From positions 434,001 through 498,000 of the forward strand of contig NZ_BBRI01000003.1 in the NCBI RefSeq assembly GCF_002090075.1: a stretch of DNA of 64,000 bases, given 5' to 3'. Position numbers and translations under genes: made by a program. The notes beneath the pieces were generated by a model, which was not told the DNA's origin, made no database searches, and worked only from the letters and a program-made list of their open reading frames with translations. This DNA comes from Demequina sp. NBRC 110052. GTDB taxonomy: Bacteria; Actinomycetota; Actinomycetes; Actinomycetales; Demequinaceae. Positions 9,802 through 37,304 of the stretch are shown one piece after another (within the stretch, counting starts at the first letter, position 1; each line of letters starts with the position of its first letter).

Positions 9802-10488
9802 TCAGGCTGGCGGCCAGGTCTCCGGGAAGGGGACGGTGGGCCTCGTCGCGTTGGGGTGGTCGCTGCGGAGCACGTCGGCGTCGCGGGCGTCCGAAGAGGT
9901 GTCGCCGCCGGCATGCGTCGCGTTCGCGGTGACGGAGACGAGCCCGGTGGGCTGCGACGGGGATTCGACCCACACGTTGTAGAACTGCACCGATTCGCCT
10001 GCGGGGATGGACCCGACATAGGTCGCGGTCACGGTGCAGGTGGTGAGTGCGGCGTCGAAGCTCGGGGTGCCGATGGTCAGGGCAGCGATGTCGGGGCCGT
10101 GCTCGTAGACACCGATGCCGACTCGAGGCTCGCGCCCTTCGAAGTCGCCTGCGATGGGGATGACGAAGGTGGCGGTGAGGACTTCGATGGCGGGCACGCC
10201 GCTTGAGGCGCCTCCGTCGAAGTTCAGGAACCCACCGCCGCATACGACCGCTGGCACGTTGGCCTGCGAGTCCTGGCTCCAGGTGGTGTACCAGCTGCCG
10301 TAGAGGGAGGAGGCGCGCACGCCGTACTCGTCGGGCACGATCGAGGCGGCTCGCGCGGGCACGGCGGTCGCGAGCACGATAGCGGGCGCCGTCCATGCAA
10401 CGGCACCGAGAATGGTGCGTCGCCTCAGCGGGAGCGTTCGACCGCGAGGGGTCTCCGCCTCGCCGACGGTGGCATCAGAGCTGCTCAA
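9802..10488 (-). CDS. Tat-exported protein of unknown function (family member 1)
   Basis: Not recognised by function. 228 residues. Seen: an N-terminal twin-arginine signal, LRRRTILGAVAWTAPAIV then ATAVPARA, followed by a beta-rich extracellular domain with two Cys and a NVWVESPSQP/VSVTANATHAGG segment near the C-terminus. That segment (N-x-W-x-E-S ... N-A-T) also occurs in the protein at 16783, so they are paralogues. A TTG start is chosen: GGGAG lies 6 nt upstream and the longer reading has no signal logic. Probably a surface protein; no enzyme motif seen. Confidence 0.75.
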   Translation of the reverse strand: MSSSDATVGEAETPRGRTLPLRRRTILGAVAWTAPAIVLATAVPARAASIVPDEYGVRASSLYGSWYTTWSQDSQANVPAVVCGGGFLNFDGGASSGVPAIEVLTATFVIPIAGDFEGREPRVGIGVYEHGPDIAALTIGTPSFDAALTTCTVTATYVGSIPAGESVQFYNVWVESPSQPTGLVSVTANATHAGGDTSSDARDADVLRSDHPNATRPTVPFPETWPPA

Positions 10489-10701
10489 CGTCCGCTCCCT
10501 CCGACGTGTCGGCCACGTGTGGACCAGTGCGTCCACCGTATGCCAGTACCACTCACGTGGCGGGATCCTCTCGCGTTGTAACTGATTTACCAGGCATGTT
10601 GCGCAATGAGGCATCGTGCCCTAGCGTTCCAGCCATGTTCCGTCGAATGTGTCGCTGACCCGAGCGCACGTTTGGCGTGCGCCCGTATGGGCGCCGCTCG
10701 C
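10489..10701. other. divergent intergenic region
   Basis: Holds the promoters of the Tat-protein gene and metY. I see no gene in it; the first about 130 nt are less GC-rich than the surroundings. Confidence 0.5.
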
Positions 10702-13518: not shown

Positions 13519-15200
13519 GGCACAGCACGACGACCCCGCCCACGCGAGCCCGCCTCTCGGGCCCCTGTGCCGGGGTTGTCGTCTGCTTCAGGCCGCAGCG
13601 GCGCTGGGTTGCTCTTGCCGTCGCAGGGCTGGTCGCAGTTGGCGGGCAGGGTCGATCGTCGCGGGCGGCCGCAGGTAGATCGCCCCGTTGCGCGGGACGA
13701 TGTCCCAGGTCTCGTCGTGCACCCGATGGTGGCAGTTCGTGCACAGGAGCACACCGTTCGAGAGGTCGGTCGGACCGCCTCGCGACCACCAGGCGATGTG
13801 GTGTGTCGAGCACCAACTCGGAGGGGCTCCGCACATGACGCAGCCACCGTCCCTCTCCCCGATGGCGATGCGCTGCGCCCGGGTGAACAGCCGCTTGCGC
13901 CGCCCGAGATCCAGCACCTGGCCTTCGGTTCCGAGGACCGCAGGGATCACTGCGGCGTCGACTGCGAGTCGACGCAGCGACGCGATGCTGACAGGGGCCA
14001 TGAGAGCGTCACAGTCGGCGAGCCCCAACCCAGATTCGAGTTCGGACTGCGGCACGCGCACGACGACCTCCGTGGTCACGTTGCTCACCTGCGACTCGCA
14101 GCCGAGCCCGTGGCGCGCGAGGTCCAGCAATGCGTCGAGCCGCATGGCGCCGGGGCTGCGGTCGTCCACGCCCGCAGGGAGCCCTCGCCGGCTCTGCATT
14201 CCCACAGTGACGTGCTTGTCGACGAAGGCGATCAGGGGTGCTGCGGAGGCGGCATCCATGCGGGCGTGCAGGGTGACGGCACCGTCTTCCTCGGACTTGA
14301 CCATGAGGTAACGGTCGCGCCGGTGCGTGCGCTCACGCGCTTCCCACGCGACGGGGTCGGCGGCGGCGCGGGCGTGCAGGCACTGCTTGCGCAGTTCTGC
14401 GATGGGGCTGGTGGTCGCGATGCGGACGAGCCTCGCCTCGAGTGCGTCAGGTTCCGTCCAGGGTGCTGACTCGTGCGTTGGCGCACCCGGCCCGCCCTGC
14501 GCACGTGCCCGGGAGAGGTCGGCCCTGAGGCCGCGTACCGCGTCCAACGTACGCGTCACCAGGCTGGCCTGCTCCACGCTGATCGATCCGGCGGACGTCG
14601 CTAGGGCCACACGCCGGTACACGCCTTGCGCGGCGCCCCGGACTGGTGCGGGCCGAGAAAGCTGCGGCCCGCCGCCGGCGCCAGCACCACCAGGCTTCTC
14701 GTCGTCAGGCGGTGGATCGTCTCGAGGGGGCGTGTCGTCAGGATCTGGACTGCCTGAAGGCTGCCCGCCGCCCTGGGACGGCCCTGCCCCAGCGTCGGGC
14801 GTGTGGGCCTCTGAGGCCGCACGAGCCGCGGCGGCGAGCATGCGGCCCACCTCGATGACCTTCAGCGCTGCCCCGGCGGTGAGCCCGGTGAGCCGCGCGA
14901 TGAGGTGAACGGCGTTGCGTTGCCCATGTCGTCGTGCGAATCCTTGCGTGCCGAGCCCGGGGTCGGATCTCACGTCCGCCTCGTGCGCACCCACGGCGAG
15001 CTGCATCTCCCCCAGGCAGTTCACGAGCGAGCCGGCCTGGACGAGCTCGATCACCTCCGAGTCCCGCAGACTCGCGGACTCGCGCCCGTCGAGCCGCTCG
15101 AGCACACGCAGCGCCCGGGCGAGATCGGCGGTCCTGAGATCCATCCCTCAAGTCAACATCAAACCACTGACATTCACCTCAAATCATCTCAAACTGTCCA
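13519..15200 (-). repeat. DUF222-HNH cassette, copy 1, with conserved flanks
   Basis: Similarity to copy 2 (40262-41990) extends beyond the coding region: about 56 nt upstream (TGAATGTCAGTGG then TTGACTTGAGG before the ATG) and about 70 nt downstream (TGAAGCAGACGAC, ACCCCGGCAC, then a hairpin closed by GTCGT). The two copies are in opposite orientation 25 kb apart. Confidence 0.7.
13588..15144 (-). CDS. DUF222 / 13E12-repeat HNH endonuclease-like protein, copy 1
   Basis: Member of the multicopy actinobacterial DUF222-HNH family; nuclease activity is predicted, biological role unknown. Seen: N-terminal DUF222 helices (VNCLGEMQLAVGAHE, FARRHGQRNAVHLIARLTG), a variable Pro/Gly/Asp linker (about 118-165), then a C-terminal HNH domain with CVMCGAPPSWCSTHHIAWW and LCTNCHHRVHDETWD (two CxxC-type zinc pairs and the HH catalytic pair). 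518 residues. The homologue at 40319 is similar throughout except the linker. Confidence 0.88.
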   Translation of the reverse strand: MDLRTADLARALRVLERLDGRESASLRDSEVIELVQAGSLVNCLGEMQLAVGAHEADVRSDPGLGTQGFARRHGQRNAVHLIARLTGLTAGAALKVIEVGRMLAAAARAASEAHTPDAGAGPSQGGGQPSGSPDPDDTPPRDDPPPDDEKPGGAGAGGGPQLSRPAPVRGAAQGVYRRVALATSAGSISVEQASLVTRTLDAVRGLRADLSRARAQGGPGAPTHESAPWTEPDALEARLVRIATTSPIAELRKQCLHARAAADPVAWEARERTHRRDRYLMVKSEEDGAVTLHARMDAASAAPLIAFVDKHVTVGMQSRRGLPAGVDDRSPGAMRLDALLDLARHGLGCESQVSNVTTEVVVRVPQSELESGLGLADCDALMAPVSIASLRRLAVDAAVIPAVLGTEGQVLDLGRRKRLFTRAQRIAIGERDGGCVMCGAPPSWCSTHHIAWWSRGGPTDLSNGVLLCTNCHHRVHDETWDIVPRNGAIYLRPPATIDPARQLRPALRRQEQPSAAAA

Positions 15201-15686: not shown

Positions 15687-16715
<1,029 letters not shown>

Positions 16716-16748
16716 TCATCCCTGCTGGGCACGGGCGCCGCCAACTCA

Positions 16749-16772
16749 CATGCCCGACGCTGGGGCCGGGCG
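16749..16772 (-). repeat. 3'-end motif copy (Tat protein 2)
   Basis: CCCCAGCGTCGGGCATG in the sense of the upstream gene, 11 nt after its stop; the best-preserved copy. Confidence 0.6.
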
Positions 16773-16782
16773 GGCGCCGACG

Positions 16783-17421
16783 CTAGGCGGCGACGGTGGC
16801 CGAGTCGACGCGGGTGGAGGTGGCGCCGTTGCGGTACGTGGCGTTGATGGTCACCTCGATGCGTTCGTTTGCGGTGGACCCCTGGGACTCGATCCAGAGG
16901 TTCGAGAGCGAGACGCCGCCCCAAGCCCCCATGCCAGGGCCGGTGTAGACCAGGACGAGCGTGGCATGTGTGCTCGTCGTCGAGAATGAGGCGAGTGTCC
17001 AGGGCATGCCGGAGGGGATTCCTTGCTCTCCGCCGAAGCCCCAGCGGTGGTTGCTTCCACCCCGGATCGGCACCACGAGCGTGAGCGTCATGGTCGCGGA
17101 GGCGGGCACACCCTGGTTCGGGTCGAGGTTCTGGATGTACATGCCCGCGACGACGGCCTTGACCTTGCCGCCTGCCGACTCGACCCAGTGGTCCTTCGTG
17201 TACTGGGCTGTGTTGAAGGTGGGCGTGAGTCCCTGACCTTGCGGCAGGGCCCCGGCCGGCGCTACGCCGGATCCCGCAACGGCTGGCACGGCACGCGCCA
17301 CGACGATCGCGGGAGCTGCCCAGGCGAAGCCCTGGAGGGTATGGCGGCGGGTCAGCAACGGACCCCCGTCGGAGATGGGCAGTTCTTCCTGGACCGCAGG
17401 CGCGGTCATATCGTCGTACAT
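16783..17421 (-). CDS. Tat-exported protein of unknown function (family member 2)
   Basis: Not recognised by function. 212 residues: a short acidic N-terminus, a twin-arginine signal TRRHTLQGFAWAAPAIVV and AVPAVA, then a beta-rich domain ending in SNLWIESQGS and VTINATYRNGAT, shared with the protein at 9802. ATG with AGGAG 8 nt upstream. A perfect TGTGA-N6-TCACA site lies about 90 nt upstream. It follows the third family member on the same strand. Probably a secreted or surface structural protein. Confidence 0.78.
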   Translation of the reverse strand: MYDDMTAPAVQEELPISDGGPLLTRRHTLQGFAWAAPAIVVARAVPAVAGSGVAPAGALPQGQGLTPTFNTAQYTKDHWVESAGGKVKAVVAGMYIQNLDPNQGVPASATMTLTLVVPIRGGSNHRWGFGGEQGIPSGMPWTLASFSTTSTHATLVLVYTGPGMGAWGGVSLSNLWIESQGSTANERIEVTINATYRNGATSTRVDSATVAA

Positions 17422-17474
17422 CGCTCTCGCTCCTCAGCAACGCTGGAGCGCCCCTCAGCCGGACGCGTCACTGC

Positions 17475-17489
17475 CCCCCATTATGGGGG
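17475..17489. promoter_or_regulatory. perfect palindrome CCCCCAT-T-ATGGGGG
   Basis: 15-nt inverted repeat between the two Tat-protein genes; could end the upstream transcript or bind a regulator. No T-run follows, so a terminator role is doubtful. Confidence 0.4.
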
Positions 17490-17511
17490 CATTTGGCACT
17501 ATGTGACGCAA

Positions 17512-17527
17512 TGTGACAGAACTCACA
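17512..17527. promoter_or_regulatory. CRP/GlxR-type site TGTGA-N6-TCACA
   Basis: Exact match to the CRP/GlxR consensus (TGTGACAGAACTCACA), about 90 nt upstream of the Tat protein 2 start. Actinobacterial CRP/GlxR regulators bind this sequence; binding here is inferred. Confidence 0.55.
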
Positions 17528-17556
17528 TCATTCCCGATGTTGGGAACAGCGATGCC

Positions 17557-18117
17557 TCACTCGCGGCTCAGCGAGACCCCAGGCAGCTCTACGCCGCCAG
17601 CACCGGCGGTTCCCACCAGCGTCACCGAGTCGATCGACTCGTAACGCGACAGCGACCATGCGAGCGTGATCGCGTCGCTGCCGCTGAGCGAGTAGCCGCC
17701 GGACGTGGGGACGATCACCATGGTGCCCGCCAGGTTGCCCGGCACCGGGAACGTGCTCGCGTCGGCGTCGACCTCCCAGCCGGCGGTGCTGATGCCGCCC
17801 TGAGTGCCCTGGTTCTGCTGCGTCGACGTGAAGGCGATCGTGATGGACGTGATCACGAAGGGGATCGTCGAGCCAGTGTCCTGTCGGGTCACGACGAGCG
17901 ACCCGGCCTTCTGTGTGGCGCCCGGGTTCTTCAGGTCCGCGGTGAACGTGCCCGACGCGACGGGCGTCGAGGTCGACGCGTCGCCAGAGCCGACGGCGAA
18001 GGCGGGAGCAGCGGTGGCAAGCACGATCGCAGGCGCGGCCCACGCGGCGCCCTGCAGGATGCGGCGGCGGGAAAGGCCATCGTGGGCGCGCTCGGGCGCA
18101 GGGACAGTAGCAGTCAT
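17557..18117 (-). CDS. Tat-exported protein of unknown function (family member 3)
   Basis: Not recognised by function. 186 residues: twin-arginine signal LSRRRILQGAAWAAPAIV and ATAAPAFA, then a Ser/Thr-rich beta domain without Cys or catalytic motif. The signal is nearly the same as in the proteins at 9802 and 16783, and the genes at 16783 and 17557 are adjacent and co-oriented. GAGGGG lies 9 nt before the ATG. A near-perfect CRP-like site lies 68 nt upstream. Likely surface protein; export in folded form by Tat is predicted from the RR motif. Confidence 0.77.
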   Translation of the reverse strand: MTATVPAPERAHDGLSRRRILQGAAWAAPAIVLATAAPAFAVGSGDASTSTPVASGTFTADLKNPGATQKAGSLVVTRQDTGSTIPFVITSITIAFTSTQQNQGTQGGISTAGWEVDADASTFPVPGNLAGTMVIVPTSGGYSLSGSDAITLAWSLSRYESIDSVTLVGTAGAGGVELPGVSLSRE

Positions 18118-18184
18118 GGCAGTGGACCCCTCAGTCAGCGCCGCCCGGGGGTAGGCGGCGTTCCATCGAGCAAGACCATAGCGG

Positions 18185-18200
18185 TGTGACGGACATCACG
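18185..18200. promoter_or_regulatory. CRP/GlxR-like site TGTGA-N6-TCACG
   Basis: TGTGACGGACATCACG, one mismatch from the CRP/GlxR consensus, about 68 nt upstream of Tat protein 3; same arrangement as the site before Tat protein 2. Confidence 0.45.
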
Positions 18201-18288
18201 TCTACTAGCAGGAACGATGCAAATGTTGCGAAACTGGACAAACTGGCACGGCGCCGTGTGAATTCTGGGTTTCGCGGCGCGGCTTGGG

Positions 18289-18579
18289 TCAGCGCAGCTC
18301 GAGGACGCCCCGAGCCGCGAGCTCGATCACCAAGTCGCGCACCATCGCTTCAGGATCCGCGCCCTCGGGCGCGCCGAAAGTACTCATGAGGTGAGCCACT
18401 GTCTCGGCAAGAGTCGCACCATGACGCGCGGACCACACCAGCTCTGAGGCGAGCGGCGACAGCAGCACGACTTCGTCGCCAGCGAGTACCAGCAACTCTC
18501 CGTCGCGCGCGAGCGCGTCGTCGTAGCAGGTCGAGATGATGGTCGTCGAGAGGAGGTCGCTCGCGCGCGGGTCGGTCAT
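18289..18579 (-). CDS. PqqD-like protein 1 (HprK-associated)
   Basis: 96-residue PqqD-fold protein; such folds act as peptide-binding chaperones or recognition elements. Seen: STTIISTCYDDALARDGELL, then VVLLSPLASELVWSARHGAT and a helical C-terminus VRDLVIELAARGVLEL, the winged-helix pattern of the family. Its ATG overlaps the stop of the HprK-like gene by 4 nt (ATGA), so it is last in the operon and coupled to that kinase. Kinase + PqqD + nucleotidyltransferase sets are known (HPr-rel-A systems), function undetermined. Confidence 0.72.
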   Translation of the reverse strand: MTDPRASDLLSTTIISTCYDDALARDGELLVLAGDEVVLLSPLASELVWSARHGATLAETVAHLMSTFGAPEGADPEAMVRDLVIELAARGVLELR

Positions 18580-19976
18580 CGCTCCCCCAGCAGTTCCGGC
18601 ATGAGGGGCAGCACGGTCGCGGCCTCGCGGTACACGAGGCGGGTGAGACCGCCGACCATCTCGACGGTGTCGGACAGGGTGTGGAGCTTCCGCGCCAGGC
18701 GCGGCAGGTAGGAGGTCTGCTCGGCCAGCTCCGCGATGCCTCGCAGGTGTGGCAGCTCCTCGAGGTACGGCTCGTCGGGGCCGTCGGGCCGCCGGTCGAG
18801 CAGCACGAGCCGCGCGAGCCGCAGATCGCGGCCGGGCAGCGCGAGGTCGAGCGAGTCGGGACTCCACTGGAGCTTGATGCCGTGGTGCGACTCGGTGATC
18901 ACGGACAGCGGCTTGGGGTACGGCACCACGCGGTCCCCCGCGATCGCGAGCGTCTCGTCCGTGACATATCCGTAGTGCGCGCCCAGGATGCGCGAGAGCG
19001 TCGTCTTGCCCGTGCCTGAGGGGGCGACGAAGCCCACCACATCGCCCTCGCGAGACGCCACCGCACTCGCGTGCAACATCAGGAGCCGCCCCGCGCGCGC
19101 ATCGATCGCGCGCACCGTCACTGCGGACGACAGGTAATGCAGCGCCTGCTCCACGTCCGGGTAGGCGAGCGCTCCACGAGAACGCGCTGTGGCGAGCACG
19201 GTCGGGCTGGGGTCTACGCACAGCTCGATCACGTCTTCGTGCTGAGTCTCGGTCGAGGCGGGCATCAGGCATCGACTCCACGCCCGGCGGGTTGCTGCAC
19301 TCAGAGCACGCGCCCCGCTTCCCGTGCAGTTCACTTCCATGCGCACCCCGAAGGCATCCAGCAAGAAGTGCTCGCCGACGGGCCGCGCTTCGGCGGCGTG
19401 CGCGGGCTGAGGTAGCAGCGCGCTCCACAGGTCCGCAGCCCAGGCGGCCGTCTCGGAGATGCGCTCGGCAATGACGTCGCGCCGAGCGTCGGCGTCCTCG
19501 ATCGACGGCAGGTCCCAGTTCTCCGCGATCGTGCGGCCGCGGCGCATCCGGTCGAGGATGAGCGGGTGCTCGTGGAGAGGGGCTGCAATCTCGATCGCAC
19601 CCTGATAGAGCTCGGCGAGCTCGGACATGCTGAAGGCGCGTCGTGCGGTGCGTGGGAAACGGCGAACGAGCTCGTCGCGGATCTGGGAGGTGCCGGTCAG
19701 GAACACATCGGTGGTGGCGACGATCTCGGGACTGAGGGATCTGGCGATGAACCCGTCGGCGTTGCCGCCGTGCGCGACGATGAGGCGGGCCGCCTCGGGG
19801 TGGAGCTTCGCGCCGTCCCGTGCGTCGAGGCCGGCGCTGGTGACGCGAATGGCCGACGCGGGGATGGCGTTGGCGCCCAGGCTGCGGCGCAGCAGGCGCT
19901 CGCCGATGGGCCCACGGCCGATGTTGAGGTCGTCGACGATGAGCACGCGGAAGGCAACGCCGGCTCCGGTCGGCAT
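18576..19976 (-). CDS. fusion of inactive LMW-phosphatase-like domain and HprK-like kinase
   Basis: 466 residues, two domains. Residues about 8-190 match low-molecular-weight tyrosine phosphatases from start to end, but the P-loop CxGNxCRSP reads DDLNIGRGP: both Cys are gone and the DPY acid loop is NWDLPSIED. Residues about 195-466 are HprK-like, with Walker A GFVAPSGTGKTTLSRIL and YVTDETLAI. So a predicted pseudophosphatase joined to a serine-kinase-type ATPase. Start ATG with AGAGG overlapping the preceding BY-kinase stop. The gene lies between a BY-kinase and a PqqD-like gene. Substrate unknown. Confidence 0.75.
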   Translation of the reverse strand: MPTGAGVAFRVLIVDDLNIGRGPIGERLLRRSLGANAIPASAIRVTSAGLDARDGAKLHPEAARLIVAHGGNADGFIARSLSPEIVATTDVFLTGTSQIRDELVRRFPRTARRAFSMSELAELYQGAIEIAAPLHEHPLILDRMRRGRTIAENWDLPSIEDADARRDVIAERISETAAWAADLWSALLPQPAHAAEARPVGEHFLLDAFGVRMEVNCTGSGARALSAATRRAWSRCLMPASTETQHEDVIELCVDPSPTVLATARSRGALAYPDVEQALHYLSSAVTVRAIDARAGRLLMLHASAVASREGDVVGFVAPSGTGKTTLSRILGAHYGYVTDETLAIAGDRVVPYPKPLSVITESHHGIKLQWSPDSLDLALPGRDLRLARLVLLDRRPDGPDEPYLEELPHLRGIAELAEQTSYLPRLARKLHTLSDTVEMVGGLTRLVYREAATVLPLMPELLGER

Positions 19977-19984
19977 GCGAACCT

Positions 19985-21400
19985 CTACGCGTCCTTCGCA
20001 GCCTTGCGGGCAGCCGCCTTGGCGGCGCGCGCCTCCGCGCGGGTGAGCTTGCCGGGCGTGTACTCGTAGCCGTAGCCGTAGAGCTGCGAGTCCGGGCCCT
20101 TGCGGCTGACGCCGTCGAGGATCACCCCGAGCGCACGTCCCTTCACGCGGTCGAGGTTCGCGAGCGCGCGGTCCAGGAGGTCGATCGTCGTCTTGCCGGC
20201 GCGCGCCACGACGAGCGCACCGTCGGTGCGGGCGGTGAGGATCGCGGCGTCGGTGACGGGGATGAGCGGCGGAGAGTCGACGAGCACGATCGCGTCCTCG
20301 TGGAACGAGTACAGCAGCGAGTGCATGGCCTGGGAGCCGAGCAGCTCCGAAGGATTTGGCGGGATGGCCCCTGCGCCGAGGACGTGGAGAAGGCCCGTGC
20401 GCCCATAGGACTGAATCACGTCAGCGGACTGCGCGCGGCCCACGAGCACGTCGGTGAGCCCGACGCCCTCCACCAGCCCCAACGCCTTGGCGATGGTGGG
20501 GCGGCGCAGGTCCGCATCGATCAGGACGACGTTGCGGCCGGAGTCCGCGATCGCCTCGGCGAGCTTGATGGAGGTGGTGGACTTACCGTCGCCGGGCAGC
20601 GACGAGGTGATGACGATGACGCGCGGCGGGTTGTCCACGTCCATGAACTCAAGGTTGGTGCGCACCTGGCGGATCGCCTCGACCATCGCGTTGTCGGTGA
20701 CGGCCTTGCCTGCGCCCTTCCTGGCGATCGAGTCGTCGTACGGAAGCGCTCCCAGCACTGCGAGCTCGAACTCCCGCTCGACGTCCGCCGGGGTCCGCAG
20801 GCGTCGGTCGAGCGCAGCCTTGATGAGCGCGTACGCGATGCCGAGCGCGAGGCCCAGCAGCACGCCCAACGCGACATACAGCTTGGTGTTCGGCGACGAC
20901 GGAGCGCCCGGCAGAGACGCAGTGTCGAGCGTCTGGAGCGCGACGATCGTGTCGGAGCCGTCAGAGGTCTCGATACCCGCGACCACCTCTGTCATGCCGA
21001 AGATCCACGCCTCGGTCAGCGCCTGCGCCTCCTCGGGCGCGGACCCGGTCGCGCTCACCCGCAGCACCGCGGTGTCAGTCGGGTTGGAGACGGACACCCG
21101 CCCGACGAGCGAGTCGGGCGAGGCGGTCAGGCCGAGTTGCTCCGCGGCGATCTCTGCGACCTGCCGTGACTTCGCGATGTCCAGATAGGACTTCACGCGA
21201 GACTTCGCATAGTTGTCGCCGACGAGGGCGTCACCCAACGAGCTCGACCCACCCGTCGTGACGATCGCCGAGCCGGACGAGGTGTACACCTTGGGCTGGA
21301 TCGACGCGTAGCCGAAGGCCGCCCCGGCGCCGAGCGCGGTCAGGAGCAGGATGGCAACCCAATGCGCACGAACGATGCGCAGGTAGTCCTCGAGCTCCAT
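19985..21400 (-). CDS. Wzz-type chain-length regulator fused to BY tyrosine kinase 1
   Basis: Inner-membrane polysaccharide co-polymerase with cytoplasmic tyrosine kinase domain, controlling chain length/export. Seen: Wzz domain with two membrane segments (about 14-34 and 175-195), then a P-loop domain with Walker A SSLPGDGKSTTSIKLAEA, Walker A' VVLIDADLRRP, Walker B IVLVDSPP and a Tyr cluster YGYGYEYTPGK before a Lys/Ala tail. 471 residues. GGAGG precedes the ATG by 8 nt. Middle gene of the five-gene operon. Confidence 0.9.
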   Translation of the reverse strand: MELEDYLRIVRAHWVAILLLTALGAGAAFGYASIQPKVYTSSGSAIVTTGGSSSLGDALVGDNYAKSRVKSYLDIAKSRQVAEIAAEQLGLTASPDSLVGRVSVSNPTDTAVLRVSATGSAPEEAQALTEAWIFGMTEVVAGIETSDGSDTIVALQTLDTASLPGAPSSPNTKLYVALGVLLGLALGIAYALIKAALDRRLRTPADVEREFELAVLGALPYDDSIARKGAGKAVTDNAMVEAIRQVRTNLEFMDVDNPPRVIVITSSLPGDGKSTTSIKLAEAIADSGRNVVLIDADLRRPTIAKALGLVEGVGLTDVLVGRAQSADVIQSYGRTGLLHVLGAGAIPPNPSELLGSQAMHSLLYSFHEDAIVLVDSPPLIPVTDAAILTARTDGALVVARAGKTTIDLLDRALANLDRVKGRALGVILDGVSRKGPDSQLYGYGYEYTPGKLTRAEARAAKAAARKAAKDA

Positions 21401-21443
21401 TCAGCCCGCCTCCCTCACAGCGACTCGGCCAGAATTCGTGCCG

Positions 21444-21755
21444 TCAGTCTATGTGCGGCGCGGCCTCGCCCTCGCCATCGGACTCGTCGTCGTCCACGAT
21501 CAGCCCCAGACGCAGCAGCTCGGCAAGGAACTCGTGGACGTCGTGCGCGATCTGCTCGCGCGGAGCGCCATACGCCTCGACCAGCTCGTCGACGATGTGC
21601 TCCTCGGTGCGCGTGCCGTCGATGCGGGTCCAGATCTCGAAGGAGGGGCCTTCGAAGACGTAGGGGGACTGCTGCTCCTCGATGCACGGAAGATTCAGCA
21701 GGACGACCGACGCGGGGCGTTCAAGTCTTGCCAGACCGCTAGCTTGCCTCACCAC
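21444..21755 (-). CDS. PqqD-like protein 2
   Basis: 103 residues with PqqD-like pattern: NLPCIEEQQSPYVFEGPSFE, IWTRIDGTRTEEHIVDELVE and a helical FLAELLRLGLIVDD. Acidic C-terminus. GTG start overlaps the end of the upstream nucleotidyltransferase gene by 17 nt (a GTG one codon later has better GGGAG spacing). Two PqqD-like genes in one operon suggests two binding partners. Function unknown. Confidence 0.7.
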   Translation of the reverse strand: MVRQASGLARLERPASVVLLNLPCIEEQQSPYVFEGPSFEIWTRIDGTRTEEHIVDELVEAYGAPREQIAHDVHEFLAELLRLGLIVDDDESDGEGEAAPHID

Positions 21756-22752
21756 GTTCTCCCGCCCTCAACACACCTCGCTCGTGCCCCTGCCGGGCAC
21801 GGATCGTGTCCGCCGAGCGCTGCCGCCTTGCTTTGCGGCCTCCGGTCGTGACGCCCCGTACGAGCCTCATTAGCCTGTACCCCGCCAAGGTCCCAGTTCC
21901 TCGCGCATTCGGGGGTAGCGCCCCGCGAATGTCATCCGCCGAAGGCCACACCGCGCGCGCCAGCAGTAAGACGCCCCGCCGCGGCCCCGTGAGCGCGATC
22001 CGCTCGAGCGCAACTCCGAGCAGTCGCCCGCCCAGGGCCACACGAACTCGCCACAAGAAGAGTCGCGTCCGCGGCACCTCAAGGTGGGGAGCAGCGACAC
22101 CCTCCGCCAACTGAGCAAGGAATCTCCCCGCTGAGCCCAATGCCCTAAGTCGCGCCGCAGACGCAATTACCTCGTCGGTGGTGGCCGCGCAGGAACCACT
22201 TGACACGCGTGATGCGAGGTCCCGTAGAGAATCGGAAGCCAACCGATGAGTAACGGGAGTCCTGAGGTCGTGGAGTGCCATGAGGATCACTGAGTCAGAA
22301 GGCGACGGCACGCTACACGACACTCCCGCGACCTCAACGAACACCCGGTCGCGCCAAAGACTGTCGAACCACTCAGCCTGGTCTCCCAGGAGGCCGGGAA
22401 AGTCGTAGTGCGCATCTACTGACAATGGGAACGCAGCACTAGCGAGGCCAACCGAGTGGGATGCAAGGTCGTGCCAGATGTCGTCGGAGTCGGTGTTGTG
22501 GAACCCTGCCTTCCGCATAGCCACAAGGAAGTCGCTGAGCTCATCTCTCGGCACAAGAACGTCAAGGTCATAGCTCTGCCGCTCGCTGCGCAGGCCGAAC
22601 TCCGAAAGCACCGGACCCTTGAGAATGAGAGCGCGCACACCCGCCGTTTCCGCGACGTGTGCCGCGACTGCGCTCAGCAGGAGCCAAGCATCGTCGGGCG
22701 AAATGGCACTGCCCGGGCTCACAGTCTCCATGCGCACGGCGCACACCACCAC
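21739..22752 (-). CDS. nucleotidyltransferase family protein (NTP_transf_5-like)
   Basis: Predicted nucleotidyltransferase of the type found with HprK-like and PqqD-like genes and in some lasso-peptide clusters. Seen: VRALILKGPVLSEFGLR followed by RQSYDLDVLV (the D-x-D catalytic pair) and ALHDLRTPVTHRL. 337 residues. First gene of the operon. Start uncertain: run of GTG codons at 22752, ATG at 22731; neither has a convincing ribosome-binding site. Base composition is visibly less GC-rich than the housekeeping genes. Acceptor unknown. Confidence 0.68.
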   Translation of the reverse strand: MVVCAVRMETVSPGSAISPDDAWLLLSAVAAHVAETAGVRALILKGPVLSEFGLRSERQSYDLDVLVPRDELSDFLVAMRKAGFHNTDSDDIWHDLASHSVGLASAAFPLSVDAHYDFPGLLGDQAEWFDSLWRDRVFVEVAGVSCSVPSPSDSVILMALHDLRTPVTHRLASDSLRDLASRVSSGSCAATTDEVIASAARLRALGSAGRFLAQLAEGVAAPHLEVPRTRLFLWRVRVALGGRLLGVALERIALTGPRRGVLLLARAVWPSADDIRGALPPNARGTGTLAGYRLMRLVRGVTTGGRKARRQRSADTIRARQGHERGVLRAGERGEAS

Positions 22753-22936
22753 TCGCCCAGTTGGCGGTCGCCGACCTCACCTCCGCCAGACAAGGGTACG
22801 CGCAGGGCCCACTTCGACCGACCGAGGATCGCATTCGACCGACGCCTACACGTGTCCTCGGCCACATCCCCGCATGTAGGGTCTGCCTAGACTGTTCTCG
22901 GCTGGAGGGGTCCAGTCGCAGAGAGGGCAACACCAT

Positions 22937-23659
22937 ATGACCGAACCACGTCAGAGTCTGCTCGCCTTTGGGGACTCGATCTGCGAAGGACTTGGAGTCG
23001 GATCCCTTCGCTACAGCGCGCTGGCCGCGAACGCGCTCGGTCTGAAACTCGAGGACTTCAGCCACACGGGCTGGACTTGCAGGCAGTCCCTCGAGGCCTT
23101 TCGAGCCAATCCTGTCAATGGGGAGGTCGCGGTCATCGCACACGGCGTCACCGAGCCGATACTGCGTCCCGACCCGTCCACTCTCCGGTTCCTGCCGCGC
23201 CGTTGGCGCAGAGTTGGGTGGATGGACCCACGGCCCTACTATTCCCGCAGGTTACCGAAACGCGCCCTAGAGCATCTCGAGTCAATGGTCCGCTGGCGGA
23301 TCAAGAATCTTGCACTCCGCATTAGCGACTATCAGTTCATGGACCGCGATACCTACGTACAGTCGATGGCCGAGTTGATCGAGAACGTCAGCAAACACGT
23401 CGATGTGGTGCTGATTGTCGAGCCCTCCGCTATCGACGAGCGCTACTTTCCGGGAAGCCGACGGGCACAGGCCGCGTACTGGCGCGCCCTTGCCGCCAGC
23501 GGCACGGACGCCCGCACGGTGGCGGTCGACCTCGAAGAGTGGGATGACTTCTTCGCGGACCACTTCCACCCCAACGCGTCGGGGCACTCAAAGATCGCGC
23601 GCTCGCTCATCGAAGCGGTCCGTAGCGAACGACTAGCCGCGGACCGGCCAGACCATTGA
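22937..23659 (+). CDS. SGNH-type hydrolase in polysaccharide cluster
   Basis: Cytosolic-looking GDSL/SGNH esterase (no signal peptide), possibly a glycan O-acyl modifying enzyme. Seen: FGDSICEGLG (block I), AHGVTEP and DHFHPNASGH (block V Asp/His). 240 residues. Stop overlaps the start of the next gene (TTGA), so it is translated with the Wzy-like, Wzx-like and glycosyltransferase genes as one operon. Divergent from the HprK/PqqD operon across 184 nt. Confidence 0.75.
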   Translation: MTEPRQSLLAFGDSICEGLGVGSLRYSALAANALGLKLEDFSHTGWTCRQSLEAFRANPVNGEVAVIAHGVTEPILRPDPSTLRFLPRRWRRVGWMDPRPYYSRRLPKRALEHLESMVRWRIKNLALRISDYQFMDRDTYVQSMAELIENVSKHVDVVLIVEPSAIDERYFPGSRRAQAAYWRALAASGTDARTVAVDLEEWDDFFADHFHPNASGHSKIARSLIEAVRSERLAADRPDH

Positions 23660-32884: not shown

Positions 32885-32948
32885 CGCCCGGCAGGGTCCG
32901 CGTGGCAGGATGGTCCACGACCGCCATGGCCATTCACGAGGGGAACGC

Positions 32949-34316
32949 GTGGAACTTCAGGACTATCTGCGGATCCTCCGTAAGAACTGGTGGATCATCC
33001 TGATCCTCACCATCCTCGGCACCGGCCTGGGGGTCGGCTACTCGCTGCTTGCGACGCCGATGTACACCGCCTCTGCCAAGGTCTTCGTCTCGACCACGGG
33101 CGCCTCGAGCGCCGCCGAGCTTCAGCAGGGCAGCTCCTTCACGCTTCAGCGAGTGCAGACGTACCGCGACCTCGTCACGACGTCGGCCGTGCTCCAGCCC
33201 ACGATCGACTCGCTCGGACTCGACATGTCCGTAAGCGAACTGCGCGGACAGGTCACCGCCTCGTCGCCCACCAACTCCGCGACGATGAACATCACCGTCA
33301 CCGACTCGGACCGCGTCTTCGCGGCGGCGCTCGCCACCGAGGCCTCACGGCAACTCATCGAGGTCGTGGAGGACATCGAGACGACCGACGCGATGGAGGC
33401 CTCGCCCGTCTCGCTCACGATCGTCCAGGAAGCCGAGGTGCCGGCGGCTCCCTCGAGCCCGAACCTCAACCTCAACGCCGCGCTCGGGCTGTTGCTCGGT
33501 CTCGCTGCAGGCATGGCGTTCGCCCTCGTGCGCGAGACTCTGGACTCGCGGATCCGCAACGAACGCGACGTCGAGCGCGTCACGGACACACCGGTGCTCG
33601 GTGGCATCGTCTTTGACCCGAAGGCCAAGGACCGGCCGCTCATCGTGCACGCAGAGTCGCACAGCCCGCGCAGCGAGTCCTTCCGCACGCTGCGCACGAA
33701 CCTGCAGTTCCTCGATCTGGGCCGCGAGAACCGTTCGTTCGTCATCACGTCATCGATGCCGAGCGAGGGTAAGTCCACGACCGCGGCGAACCTTGCGATC
33801 GCACTCGCACATTCGGGCGCCCGCGTCCTTCTCGTGGGTGCCGACCTTCGCAAGCCGAAGATGGCCGAGTACATGTCGGTCGAAGGCGGTGTGGGGCTTA
33901 CCGACGTACTGATCGGCAAGGTGACGCTCGACCAGGCGATCCAGAGGTGGGGGCGCACCGAGCTCCATCTGCTCCCCGCAGGCCAGATCCCGCCGAACCC
34001 CTCCGAGCTGCTCGGCAGCTCCCTGATGGAGACGCTGATCGGCGAGGTCGACGCCCGCTTCGACGTGGTGCTCTACGACGCTCCTCCGCTGCTGCCCGTC
34101 ACGGACGCTGCTGTGCTCGCGCGACTGGTCGGTGGCGCGCTGGTGATCTGCGCGGCAGGCAAGACTCACGTGCCCCAGTTGGACAGCGCGCTCGCCGCTC
34201 TCGAGAACGTGGGAGCGCCCGTCTCCGGGATCGTGCTCACGATGCTTCCGACGCGCGGACCCGATGCGTACGGCTACGGACGTTACGGCTACACCTACGC
34301 GGAGTACGCCAACTAG
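32949..34316 (+). CDS. Wzz-type chain-length regulator fused to BY tyrosine kinase 2
   Basis: Second membrane co-polymerase/tyrosine kinase. Seen: Wzz domain with membrane segments (about 14-35 and 175-195), Walker A SSMPSEGKSTTAANLA, Walker B VVLYDAPP, and a C-terminal Tyr cluster YGYGRYGYTYAEYAN. The Walker A' motif reads LLVGADLRKP: the first Asp of D-x-D-x-R is Gly, unlike kinase 1, so activity may be altered. GTG start with GAGGGG 5 nt upstream; 455 residues. Transcript ends at a strong hairpin. Confidence 0.9.
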   Translation: MELQDYLRILRKNWWIILILTILGTGLGVGYSLLATPMYTASAKVFVSTTGASSAAELQQGSSFTLQRVQTYRDLVTTSAVLQPTIDSLGLDMSVSELRGQVTASSPTNSATMNITVTDSDRVFAAALATEASRQLIEVVEDIETTDAMEASPVSLTIVQEAEVPAAPSSPNLNLNAALGLLLGLAAGMAFALVRETLDSRIRNERDVERVTDTPVLGGIVFDPKAKDRPLIVHAESHSPRSESFRTLRTNLQFLDLGRENRSFVITSSMPSEGKSTTAANLAIALAHSGARVLLVGADLRKPKMAEYMSVEGGVGLTDVLIGKVTLDQAIQRWGRTELHLLPAGQIPPNPSELLGSSLMETLIGEVDARFDVVLYDAPPLLPVTDAAVLARLVGGALVICAAGKTHVPQLDSALAALENVGAPVSGIVLTMLPTRGPDAYGYGRYGYTYAEYAN

Positions 34317-34389: not shown

Positions 34390-34881
34390 CTACGCGTTGC
34401 GACGGCGGCGAGCGGCGAACGCGACAGCGGCCGCTCCACCCACGAGCAGGGCGCCCGCGCCGATGGCGAGACCCGCGTTCTCGAATCCCGTGCGCGGAAG
34501 GCTGTCGCCATCGGCGACGACCGCGATAGCAACAGCGTTGGTCGCCTGGCCGTCAACGGTCGCGGTGACGGAGATCGTGCCGAGCTCGTTCGGAGCGGTC
34601 ACGAGGAACTCTGCGTCGGTCCCGGTGATCGGACCGGACACCGTGGTGGAGCCGGCGACGTACTCCGCGGTGGGGGTACCCGTCGGGTGGCTGAAGGTCA
34701 CCTCAGCGAGCGCACCGTCGGGACCATAAACGTAGCAGGTGGCGCTCTCACCGGGTGCGAGCTCCAGGTCCTCGCACATGAGCGCCTCGCTCACAGGCGG
34801 GTACGTGTCCGCGAAGGCGATCGCAGGTGTCAGGACAAGCGCGCCCGCGGCACCAACCGCAGCGATCGTGCGACGAATCAT
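34390..34881 (-). CDS. LPxTG-type cell-wall anchored small protein
   Basis: Secreted protein linked to the wall by sortase. Seen: signal peptide (RRTIAAVGAAGALVLTPAIA), a single immunoglobulin-like domain with two Cys (about 35-115), then LPRTG, a hydrophobic segment and RRRR tail. 163 residues. ATG at 34881 with AGGAGG; an upstream in-frame start overlaps the DUF4012 gene. No sortase gene is in the window. Function unknown; placement suggests a polymer-associated surface protein. Confidence 0.85.
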   Translation of the reverse strand: MIRRTIAAVGAAGALVLTPAIAFADTYPPVSEALMCEDLELAPGESATCYVYGPDGALAEVTFSHPTGTPTAEYVAGSTTVSGPITGTDAEFLVTAPNELGTISVTATVDGQATNAVAIAVVADGDSLPRTGFENAGLAIGAGALLVGGAAAVAFAARRRRNA

Positions 34882-34936
34882 TGTTTCCTCCTCATCGGCG
34901 CGACCCCTCAGCAGCGCCACGTTTTCCGAGTTCACC

Positions 34937-36697
34937 TTAACAGCCGTCAATGGGCTGGTCGATCACCGATTTGTAAACTTCCGATGAACTGCCGGGCGTT
35001 GCCACCACTTCTGGGGGCAGGACATTTCGCCCAATGGCATTCACAGTGAATACCAGCGTGGTCGAGTCTCCAGGCTCGAGCTCCACCCATGCTTCGACGG
35101 CAGTGCGTCCGCCCTGTTCCGCCGCTGCAAGTGGCCCACGCTCGCCGTCCCGGGTCAGGTGCGACACATTGAAGCCATCCGCGGGGTAGATCATCACATT
35201 TGCGTGGAAATGACCCGCGGGCACGTACACGTCTCCACCGGAGATATACCAGGGCAACGCCTCGGGGTTTCCCGCGAACGTATGCACGAGTGTGAGCTCG
35301 ATCGTTTGGCCCGAGACGGAGCCGTCTGAGCACACGAGATTCGTCACCGTGACGTCCTCGTCGATGTAGTAGCCGATCTTCGAGCCCGAGCCATCGTTGA
35401 GGAAGACCCCTAGGCGCTCTCCATGTTCCAGGAAGGCGCCACCCACGGGCGTGGTCGCGATGAGCTCCTGTTCTGCGGCATCCGCAGACCAGACCAGGAA
35501 GCGGCCATCCTCGATCGCTCGTTCCACGCCAGCCACCGGACTCGCTCCTCCACCGAGGATCTGCGCGAAGAGCACTGCGGCCGCCTGAGCGAAGAACGCG
35601 TCCTGCTCCGCTGGGTCCTCGATGCGCAGGTACGCCTCGTTGAGCATGACGTCTGCGAGAGTGTCGGACGTGATCTGAAACCCCTGGATCTCCACGGCCG
35701 GGGAGCCCTCGAGCATGTAGCCGAGCGCCACGGGGTCCACCGAAACGACCGCGTCGGGCGTCTCGCCGTGCGAGTCCTGCCAGAAGGCACTCACAATCTC
35801 GCCGGTACGGGGGAACTCGGGGGTGAGGTTCGCGTCCTGCGGGTAGATCACCGGACGCCGAGTGAAGATGTTCTCCTCCTCGTCCGTCAGCTCCAGCACC
35901 CCGTCGTGGTTGACCATCGAGGCGGCAGAGGCGTACTCGCCCATACGCATCACTCCGTCGACTACGACGACCTCGATGAACGCCCCCGGGATGCCACCGG
36001 TCGTGCGCGGCTCGGCATTGTTCTGCACCACCACCAGGTAGTGACGTTCGCCCTCGCCGCCGAGCATGCCAGGCAGGACCTCAGCCGCGACGTGCGCGCC
36101 CTGGACGAGCTCAGCGAGGTCGTCCAATTGGCTCTCGAGCGTGAGGTACTGCTCCCGGATGAAGCCCACGGTTCCGCCAAGACTGACCTCAGCCAGAGCG
36201 TCGGACTGCTCGGCGAGGGTGGTCGCCGCGAGCGCGAGGGTCTCGCGGTACGGCTCGAGCACGTAGGGGTCGATGCGACCATCGACCACGGCTGGCGCCT
36301 CAAGCGCGCTGAGGTCGTCCAGCGCGGCCAGCGGCGCGAGCGCACCCTCGGCCATCGCCTCCACCGAGTCGCCCGCCTGCATCAGCGGCACGGCCTGGCT
36401 CTTGACCCACGGAATCTGAGACGCGAGCCACCAGTGCGGGCCACTCGTCGCGGACGCAAAAGTGTCGGCAGCCGCCTGGACCTCGACAACCTCGGCCGTC
36501 AGCGCATCGGCGTCACGTGCGGAGACCGCCGCCTGCGCCGCGGCGGCGTGAGACTTGAGGTCGTCCGCGGCGCCCAAGAGCCTCCAGCCGTCGTACGCGA
36601 ACAGCCCCGCGAGCACCAGCAGCACCAGGCCCGACGCGCCCGCCACCCAGGGCCAGACGCGCCTTCTCTGCACGGAAGCGTGCTGGTACGTTGTCAT
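34937..36697 (-). CDS. DUF4012 membrane protein
   Basis: DUF4012 proteins occur in actinobacterial polysaccharide clusters; the biochemical role is not known. Seen: an N-terminal membrane anchor (WPWVAGASGLVLLVLAGLFA), a helical region, then the DUF4012 core with VVQNNAEPRTTGGIPGAF and ITSDTLADVMLNEAY. About 586 residues. ATG at 36697 chosen over an extension to 36745. Next to an LPxTG gene on the same strand and divergent from the LMW phosphatase. Confidence 0.82.
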   Translation of the reverse strand: MTTYQHASVQRRRVWPWVAGASGLVLLVLAGLFAYDGWRLLGAADDLKSHAAAAQAAVSARDADALTAEVVEVQAAADTFASATSGPHWWLASQIPWVKSQAVPLMQAGDSVEAMAEGALAPLAALDDLSALEAPAVVDGRIDPYVLEPYRETLALAATTLAEQSDALAEVSLGGTVGFIREQYLTLESQLDDLAELVQGAHVAAEVLPGMLGGEGERHYLVVVQNNAEPRTTGGIPGAFIEVVVVDGVMRMGEYASAASMVNHDGVLELTDEEENIFTRRPVIYPQDANLTPEFPRTGEIVSAFWQDSHGETPDAVVSVDPVALGYMLEGSPAVEIQGFQITSDTLADVMLNEAYLRIEDPAEQDAFFAQAAAVLFAQILGGGASPVAGVERAIEDGRFLVWSADAAEQELIATTPVGGAFLEHGERLGVFLNDGSGSKIGYYIDEDVTVTNLVCSDGSVSGQTIELTLVHTFAGNPEALPWYISGGDVYVPAGHFHANVMIYPADGFNVSHLTRDGERGPLAAAEQGGRTAVEAWVELEPGDSTTLVFTVNAIGRNVLPPEVVATPGSSSEVYKSVIDQPIDGC

Positions 36698-36764
36698 GCG
36701 TTGCCGTCCCCCGGGCCTCAAGTTCGTGGACTGCGCACCCGGCATTGACGTCTAGGGGGAGACG

Positions 36765-37304
36765 ATGACCACGCTGCTGACTGTCTGCACCGGCAACATC
36801 TGCCGCTCCCCCGCCGGAGCGCTGCTGCTCGAAGAATACCTGGGAGACATCGCCAGTTCCGTCAGCGCGGGCGCGCACGCGATGGTGGACCACGGCATCC
36901 CCAGCGAGATGCTCACCGAGCTCGGTGCGGACGGCATCGACGGCTCGCGCCACCGCGCGCGCCAGCTCGATGCCCACCTCATGAAGTCCGCAGACCTGGT
37001 GCTGTGCATGACGCGCGACCACCGCACGCTTGCCGCCCAGACGGACCCCGCGTCGCTGCGCAAGGTGTTCACGCTCATGGAGGTCGCAGAGACTGCCCGG
37101 CGCGGCGCGAAGCTTGAGGGCTCGACGCCAGCCGAGCGACTGAGCGATGTCCCGCTCGCTGTCGCCGCCTTCCGGCCCGAGCTCGCGGGCGCCGACATCC
37201 CCGACGTGCCGGACCCCTACAAGAGGGACCTGGGCGCGTATCACGAGAGCTACGCCATGATTCGGGCTGCCGTGCGAGACATCGCGGCGTGGGTGCGCGG
37301 CTGA
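36765..37304 (+). CDS. low-molecular-weight protein-tyrosine phosphatase
   Basis: Cytoplasmic phosphatase expected to remove phosphates from BY-kinase tyrosine clusters (Wzb-like role). Seen: intact active site VCTGNICRSPAGA at residues about 7-19 and the general-acid loop VPDPYKRD. 179 residues. Serves as an active reference for the dead homologous domain at 18576. It lies between DUF4012 and the fucose-synthase gene in the polysaccharide region. Confidence 0.92.
   Translation: MTTLLTVCTGNICRSPAGALLLEEYLGDIASSVSAGAHAMVDHGIPSEMLTELGADGIDGSRHRARQLDAHLMKSADLVLCMTRDHRTLAAQTDPASLRKVFTLMEVAETARRGAKLEGSTPAERLSDVPLAVAAFRPELAGADIPDVPDPYKRDLGAYHESYAMIRAAVRDIAAWVRG

Follow-up and report, generated by a model that had tools for sequence, protein, structure and literature searches.

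Here we describe a five-gene operon of Demequina sp. NBRC 110052 together with the small, apparently exported proteins encoded next to it. The operon occupies positions 18289-22752, on the minus strand, of the 64,000-nucleotide stretch of contig NZ_BBRI01000003.1 that was analysed (hereafter the window). An original prediction, made from the DNA letters, had described there five joined genes attached to an exopolysaccharide cluster and coding for a nucleotidyltransferase, two PqqD-like proteins, a bacterial tyrosine kinase (BY-kinase) and an HprK-like kinase. We confirmed the five open reading frames (ORFs), which are connected through overlaps or short gaps. Read from 22752 down to 18289, they are a nucleotidyltransferase of the NTP_transf_5 family, a first PqqD-like protein (PqqD1), a Wzz/BY-kinase, the kinase gene and a second PqqD-like protein (PqqD2) (Table 1). 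PqqD1 overlaps the NTP_transf_5 gene by 17 bases and PqqD2 overlaps the kinase gene by 4, and the BY-kinase is flanked by gaps of 43 and 8 bases. The attachment to an exopolysaccharide cluster was also borne out: the polysaccharide neighbourhood of the operon is real, with glycosyltransferases and a sugar transferase nearby, along with a hexapeptide-repeat transferase, a second BY-kinase and a conventional low-molecular-weight (LMW) phosphatase.

Table 1. The operon, the candidate client proteins and other features of the window (RRE, RiPP recognition element; RiPP, ribosomally synthesised and post-translationally modified peptide; Tat, twin-arginine translocation; AF2, AlphaFold2).
Feature	Position	Strand	Basis or remark
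NTP_transf_5 nucleotidyltransferase, 337 aa	21739..22752	-	Pfam PF14907 1.4e-14
PqqD1, discrete RRE-like protein, 103 aa	21444..21755	-	Pfam PqqD 2.7e-13
Wzz/BY-kinase, 471 aa, C-terminal Tyr cluster LYGYGYEY	19985..21400	-	TIGR01007, Wzz
Pseudo-LMW-phosphatase / HprK-PEPCK-fold kinase fusion, 466 aa	18576..19976	-	Pfam LMWPc, AF2
Pseudophosphatase domain, residues 9-189	19410..19952	-	P-loop VDDLNIGRGP, Asp15 replaces Cys
Kinase domain, residues 201-466	18579..19376	-	Walker A APSGTGKTT, TDE motif
PqqD2, divergent PqqD/RRE-like kinase partner, 96 aa	18289..18579	-	Pfam 0.076
Candidate client 1, Tat-signal protein SRRRILQGAAWAAPAIVLATAAPAFAVGS	17557..18117	-	Genome match C3:451974
Candidate client 2, Tat-signal protein TRRHTLQGFAWAAPAIVVARAVPAVAGS	16783..17421	-	Genome match C3:451254
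Candidate client 3, ~8 kb off, RRRTILGAVAWTAPAIVLATAVPARAAS	9802..10536	-	Genome match C3:444327
Second, conventional BY-kinase	32910-34316	+	Same cluster
Conventional LMW phosphatase, intact CTGNICRSP	36765-37304	+	Same cluster
DUF4012 protein	34937-36745	-	Within cluster
Small protein, LPRTG-like C-terminal sorting signal	34390-34950	-	Within cluster, spotted by eye
DUF222/HNH endonuclease genes	13588-15144, 40319-41920	-, +	Flank polysaccharide region

In 21 of the 47 genomes of the family the kinase gene is matched over its full length, and these define the 21 loci considered below. The BY-kinase, the kinase gene and PqqD2 follow one another in the same order and on the same strand in all 21. 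The exact window order of all five genes, with NTP_transf_5 and PqqD1 directly upstream, was found in 11 of them; in the remaining 10, NTP_transf_5 and/or PqqD1 lie elsewhere within the fetched 20 kb. Such synteny is far beyond chance. It agrees with the conserved gene order that the original prediction had proposed to look for, and also with the BY-kinase that it placed in the middle of the module, which is a constant part in every one of the 21 genomes of the genus with the kinase gene. At one locus (L047, genome G023) the BY-kinase and NTP_transf_5 genes are split over frames, which may reflect decay of the module or a misassembly. A pattern scan of positions 16500-23200 picked out a single promoter-like site (0.4 expected), which lies between the two Tat genes closest to the operon, and a single terminator-like site (1.4 expected) on the opposite strand.

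Profile searches upheld the assignments of both the nucleotidyltransferase (Table 1) and the BY-kinase. In the nucleotidyltransferase, K45-G46, D62, D64, D113 and H115 are invariant among the 19 of 21 sequences aligned, with the split L047 and the partial L049 omitted. With 27-32% identity to its relatives, it diverges most among the five genes, and its true start may be an ATG seven codons further in. G+C content drops from ~0.69 to 0.63 at this gene, as if it were part of the lower-G+C polysaccharide genes. The BY-kinase scores 138.8 bits with TIGR01007 against a cut-off of 108.05, includes a Wzz domain (8.3e-7) and ends in a tyrosine tail, and thereby belongs to the BY-kinase class; its Walker A motif is conserved in the 20 of 21 sequences aligned (L047 omitted).

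Judging from its family profile and leader pocket, PqqD1 is likely a discrete RRE of the PqqD/B1 type. Its profile matches the RREs TbiB1 (5v1u), PbaB1 (9x90) and LppB (9x8z). When the PbaB1 pocket was mapped through the profile alignment and the numbering of PMC13381572, with an inferred offset, 5 of the 10 mapped positions were kept in at least 18 of the 21 PqqD1 proteins (I48, L65 and L87 in 20 each, F83 in 19, and L92), and Q79 was replaced by Asp in 15 of 21. Concerning PqqD2, we identify it as a second, divergent member because its profile matches that of PqqD1 (hhalign probability 91.7, E 7.7e-7) and because it is fused to the kinase or adjoins it in many other genomes, the fused form being present in genome G040 and in many loci of other genera. 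The alignment of PqqD proteins comprised 23 selected rows. The prediction of two PqqD proteins stood in Pfam for PqqD1, whereas PqqD2 stays under the Pfam cut-off (13.8 vs 23.4 bits) and is recovered by the match to PqqD1.

The fourth gene is not a plain kinase, as had been predicted, since an N-terminal LMWPc domain (Pfam 2.5e-8) is fused to the kinase; the HprK-like part of that prediction stands by fold. The AF2 model of the whole fusion has a predicted local distance difference test (pLDDT) score of 88.8, and its N-terminal domain superimposes on YwlE (4etn) with a Z score of 21.5 and 1.6 A over 147 residues. The domain has the fold of an active LMW protein tyrosine phosphatase but neither the CX5R[ST] P-loop nor the general-acid motif DP[YFW]. 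In the 21 full-length fusion homologues, the window's own included, the P-loop Cys is replaced by Asp (18), Gly (2) or Ser (1); a lone match to the CX5R expression, in L052, falls outside the P-loop and was not counted. DP[YFW] was found in none of the 21 fusions in the stretch searched, against 18 of 19 stand-alone relatives. CX5R is intact in all 19 distinct stand-alone relatives of the examined loci, including the window's own second phosphatase.

Because sequence searches gave mostly P-loop matches, the kinase domain (C-terminal 266 residues) was folded and searched alone. The resulting AF2 model (pLDDT 96.5) resembles PEPCK (Z 15.8, 4.2 A over 250 residues, PEPCK entries taking up all 50 matches listed) and HprK 3tqf (Foldseek 1.6e-4), and this predicted fold together with the P-loop points to membership of the HprK/PEPCK-fold kinase superfamily. 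The Pfam HPr-kinase family matched none of the 21 fusion members. Across 50 aligned homologues (17 of 21 from the same genus and 33 of 40 from other genera), H102, G121, G123, K124, T126, D140 and E141 are invariant, and TIGR04352 matches 48 of the 50 at E<=0.01, at best with 5.4e-9. Within the order, the fusion was seen only in this genus: in none of the 40 kinase loci fetched from other genera does a phosphatase match lie in the same frame as the kinase. The phosphatase domain is also missing from the two kinase loci of genome G040.

Downstream of PqqD2, the module loci encode small ORFs with a twin-arginine signal, the candidate clients of Table 1 being those of the window. Their products have about 150-340 aa, and Pfam and NCBIfam gave no confident name for 10 of them. 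The aligned Tat signals share the consensus xSRRRxxQGAAWATPAIxxATAxPAAAAS. The class was collected by a pattern search from which three matches were omitted (one below 100 aa, one running off the locus end, one a false window match), leaving 65; 60 of these rows, without five that have short N-termini, make up the Tat model. Class members missed by the pattern were recovered otherwise, among them candidate client 2 of the window and one each in L035, L045, L048 and L050. RR is present in 60 of the 60 model rows, the collecting pattern having demanded RR or KR. The twin arginines, a hydrophobic stretch, an AxA site and a TatC encoded in the same genome (1.3e-58) make these proteins probable Tat substrates.

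The same signals carry the motif W-x-x-P-A-[I/V/L], and the residue 14 positions beyond its Pro is usually Ser. According to PMC13381572, the RREs of lasso and linear polyphosphorylated peptide (LPP) pathways recognise a leader motif [Y/W]xxPx[L/V/I/F/A], and in LPP the kinase LppK phosphorylates core Ser3; counted from that paper's numbering (Pro = -13), Ser3 is placed at +15 from the motif Pro. A leader motif of the kind that marks LPP precursors thus appears to lie inside the Tat signal. The Trp is present in 80 of 81 Demequina and 14 of 17 other-genus matches of the Tat class, and Ser at +14 in 72 and 15 of them, respectively. The general Tat model, tried as a control, was dropped as too insensitive (10 matches in 9 genomes), and for that reason we used a Tat definition blind to W and P over 79 loci and the window. 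It gave 97 N-termini in two groups, with WxxP in 71 of 74 class members vs 1 of 23 others. A converse scan for ORFs of 30-260 aa with [YW]xxPx[LVIFA], without demand for twin arginines, returned 132 ORFs in the 21 loci. The Tat class makes up the single large family among these, with 54 ORFs from 20 loci that all show twin Arg and W..P, and the two other families in at least three loci (three ORFs in three loci each) look wholly or mostly non-coding. No small-peptide precursor was found among these motif-bearing ORFs of the 21 loci, a search that one below 30 aa or free of the motif would escape.

We then compared the distribution of these components in the family (47 genomes), in an order sample of 297 genomes and in a class sample of 335, scoring the best candidates per genome (in the order, 25 for Tat and 8 for the kinase), with misses possible. 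In the family the Tat class occurs in 23 genomes, that is all 21 with the fusion, G040, whose kinase has no phosphatase domain, and G018, which has a single class Tat protein (L059) and no kinase match. All 21 fusion genomes have a class member less than or equal to 5 kb from the fusion, and 76 of the 83 family matches lie within 15 kb of it. Three more are found in G023 at a second site (L058) with a PqqD1 relative and a BY-kinase, and G018, G030, G037 and G040 have single matches. The model rows derive from the fusion loci, and what is informative is the absence of matches elsewhere in those genomes and in the 24 genomes that have none.

In the order, at thresholds of our choice (Tat 1e-4, kinase 1e-8, NTP_transf_5 1e-10, BY-kinase 1e-60), the Tat class was found in 57 genomes, the kinase in 58, NTP_transf_5 in 52 and the BY-kinase in 168. 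Tat class and kinase occur together in 52 (p 3.6e-45), all three with NTP_transf_5 in 51, and every NTP_transf_5 genome (52/52) has the kinase; 21 genera have the Tat class, 21 the kinase, and 20 are common to both (p 3e-18). BY-kinase or polysaccharide capacity alone was rejected as the cause of this coupling, the BY-kinase being present in 168 of the 297 genomes. In the class sample, again at thresholds of our choice (Tat 1e-5, kinase 1e-12, and a 200-bit kinase cut set after seeing the scores), 15 genomes have the Tat class; 17 have a kinase of at least 200 bits and 37 one at E<=1e-12, with 14 having both in either case. Outside the order, the Tat class is found in 7 genomes, the strong kinase in 8 and both in 7.

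Taken together, the operon probably encodes a system for RRE-guided protein modification, with the Tat-exported proteins of the neighbouring genes as its clients. The peptide- or protein-modifying module of the original prediction is in this way supported, with Tat-exported proteins carrying an RRE-binding motif as its likely clients. From the observed gene content, synteny, phosphatase residue loss, predicted folds, phyletic and positional coupling, and motif, we infer client binding, phosphorylation, a second modification, their order, Tat export and docking as follows. A PqqD protein, as a discrete RRE, would bind WxxPx[LVI] in the client Tat signal, which would double as leader; export of the client may have to wait until it has been modified. 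The Ser ~14 residues past the motif, at the edge of the mature protein, would be the target of the HprK/PEPCK-fold kinase; NTP_transf_5 would then add a sugar or nucleotide to the Ser phosphate, and the folded, marked client would exit through Tat. The adjacent BY-kinase, once phosphorylated on its tyrosine tail, may offer a docking site there for the pseudophosphatase domain and with it for the kinase, and such docking would tie client marking to polysaccharide assembly.

Several observations weigh against this reading. Concerning the coupling, 5 of 57 order genomes have the Tat class without the kinase (G018, G056, G117, G252, G273) and 6 of 58 the kinase without the Tat class (G147, G160, G199, G223, G262, G274). 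Of the 58 kinase genomes, 46 fall outside the genus, and 39 of them supplied the 40 loci fetched; the Tat class lies within ~3 kb of the kinase in 13 of these loci, and the other 27 show no Tat-class match in the fetched stretch. Related genomes, moreover, are not independent observations. Concerning recognition, the PbaB1 pocket residues I44, V71, E75 and Y69 are found in only 0, 2, 6 and 11 of the 21 PqqD1 proteins, no solved-structure RRE matched PqqD2, and the partner that would bind the client could be either PqqD1 or PqqD2. The collecting pattern demanded W and P, so the Tat model is biased to them, and the 23 N-termini outside the class in the W/P-blind search may include some that do not belong to genuine Tat genes. 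With the general model TIGR01409, this genome gives no Tat match at E<=0.1. Candidate client 1 of the window has its Ser at +15, not +14, and the Ser could merely suit signal peptidase. Finally, the three class members of L120 (genome G202) all lack the W, AxAVPAI replacing AAWAxPAI; some genomes may, like this one, have altered the recognition residue.

LMW-phosphatase relatives normally act on BY-kinases. The pseudophosphatase-kinase and NTP_transf_5 may modify the polysaccharide machinery itself, either the adjacent BY-kinase or another assembly protein, to set chain length, with the Tat proteins merely as secreted matrix proteins of the locus. That action, the polysaccharide genes of the cluster, the BY-kinase directly preceding the fusion in 21 of 21 loci and its proximity to the kinase in several other genera speak for this possibility, and its presence in all 58 kinase genomes of the order leaves room for such a link. 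However, the kinase tracks the Tat class and NTP_transf_5 (52 and 52 of 58), whereas 168 of the 297 genomes have the BY-kinase and 110 of these lack the kinase, and the RRE motif in the Tat signals and the two PqqD proteins would be left unexplained, which makes it rather unlikely in our view. We regard as quite improbable that WxxP is a structural trait of one surface-protein Tat subtype and coincides with the kinase through joint island transfer without functional link: genomes of the genus do have either both module and Tat class or neither, like islands gained or lost as a unit, but in other genera the Tat genes co-occur with the kinase even though they often lie away from it, and the coupling recurs outside the order. 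That PqqD and kinase serve an unrecognised lasso- or LPP-like RiPP, with the Tat proteins as bystanders or exported partners, would fit an enzyme set equal to that of LPP and paeninodin-type clusters, but is very improbable given that the Tat class is the sole conserved coding-like family in the motif scan of the 21 loci, that it stays so close to the fusion, and that the 20 window neighbours scanned include no lasso cyclase or B2 protease; because the converse scan found no small-peptide precursor, we lowered this explanation and raised that of Tat-exported clients.

By analogy, the window system appears to work like the RRE-kinase-nucleotidyltransferase sets of LPP and paeninodin-type pathways, and to differ in client, presumed export and fusion. 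With the LPP RiPPs of Bacillota (PMC13381572) it shares a discrete RRE, an HprK-like kinase and an NTP transferase, the latter assigned here by Pfam NTP_transf_5. We also count as likeness the conserved N-terminus and variable C-terminus of LPP precursors (35-200 aa) and the capsule loci often found near them (PMC13381572). LPP leaders differ in carrying YxxP, and LPP pathways have their own SpI-like peptidase and MsbA-like exporter (PMC13381572); in the window system the motif is WxxP and lies within a Tat signal, export is presumed to use Tat, and there are two PqqD proteins, the pseudophosphatase-kinase fusion, a BY-kinase partner and an Actinobacteria host, and no SpI-like peptidase or MsbA-like exporter was found among the 20 window neighbours scanned (part of the genes). 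In paeninodin/pseudomycoidin-type lasso pathways, an HprK homologue phosphorylates Ser and a nucleotidyltransferase adds hexoses, in pseudomycoidin to the Ser phosphate (PMC8498205), and a WxxP leader is read by a PqqD-like B1 (PMC13381572). Here, in contrast, the candidate clients are whole proteins, and neither a macrolactam cyclase nor a B2 leader peptidase was found among the same 20 neighbours.

HPr-rel-A systems (TIGR04352/TIGR04353) are alike in joining an HprK-related kinase with a PqqD-like protein, here with NTP_transf_5, which belongs to the HPr-rel-A system. Formal assignment to these NCBI families nevertheless fails, since the window kinase reaches 20.6 of the 200 bits of the TIGR04352 cut-off, and the PqqD proteins 19.2 and 15.7 of the 35 of TIGR04353. 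Wzc/Wzb pairs also have a BY-kinase followed by an LMW-phosphatase fold, but in the window system all 21 fusions lack the P-loop Cys and DP[YFW] in a domain that is joined to a kinase, a normal BY-kinase/phosphatase pair being present elsewhere in the cluster. TorD and DmsD are Tat proofreading chaperones that retain a Tat signal while the protein matures in the cytoplasm. Such a holding role would resemble the putative one of the RRE here, though the proteins are unrelated.

A bolder picture, doubtful when taken as a whole, would have Tat signals recruited as RiPP leaders in Actinobacteria, with the RRE as a Tat proofreading adaptor, the phospho-sugar on the N-terminal Ser of the client as a covalent anchor for the exopolysaccharide of the neighbouring genes, and the pseudophosphatase setting the timing by BY-kinase phosphotyrosine. 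The anchor, if true, would amount to a protein-linked phosphoglycan pathway. The stand-alone HprK/PqqD/NTP_transf_5 sets of Actinobacteria gain a concrete, testable client class, and a conserved pseudophosphatase fused to a kinase is found beside a BY-kinase. The data also suggest that RRE-guided modification, known from small peptides, extends to whole exported proteins through their Tat signals. Among the literature matches listed, with subscription papers and preprints outside the scope of the search, we found no description of this combination.

Among plasmid records just two matched, both partial and phosphatase-like. The original prediction had overlooked the three Tat proteins, the second BY-kinase and the conventional phosphatase. 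Within the window cluster, the DUF4012 protein and the small protein with a sorting signal lie between these last two genes, on the opposite strand. DUF222/HNH endonuclease genes flank the polysaccharide region, and two further loci, L034 and L035, have the same family close to the module.

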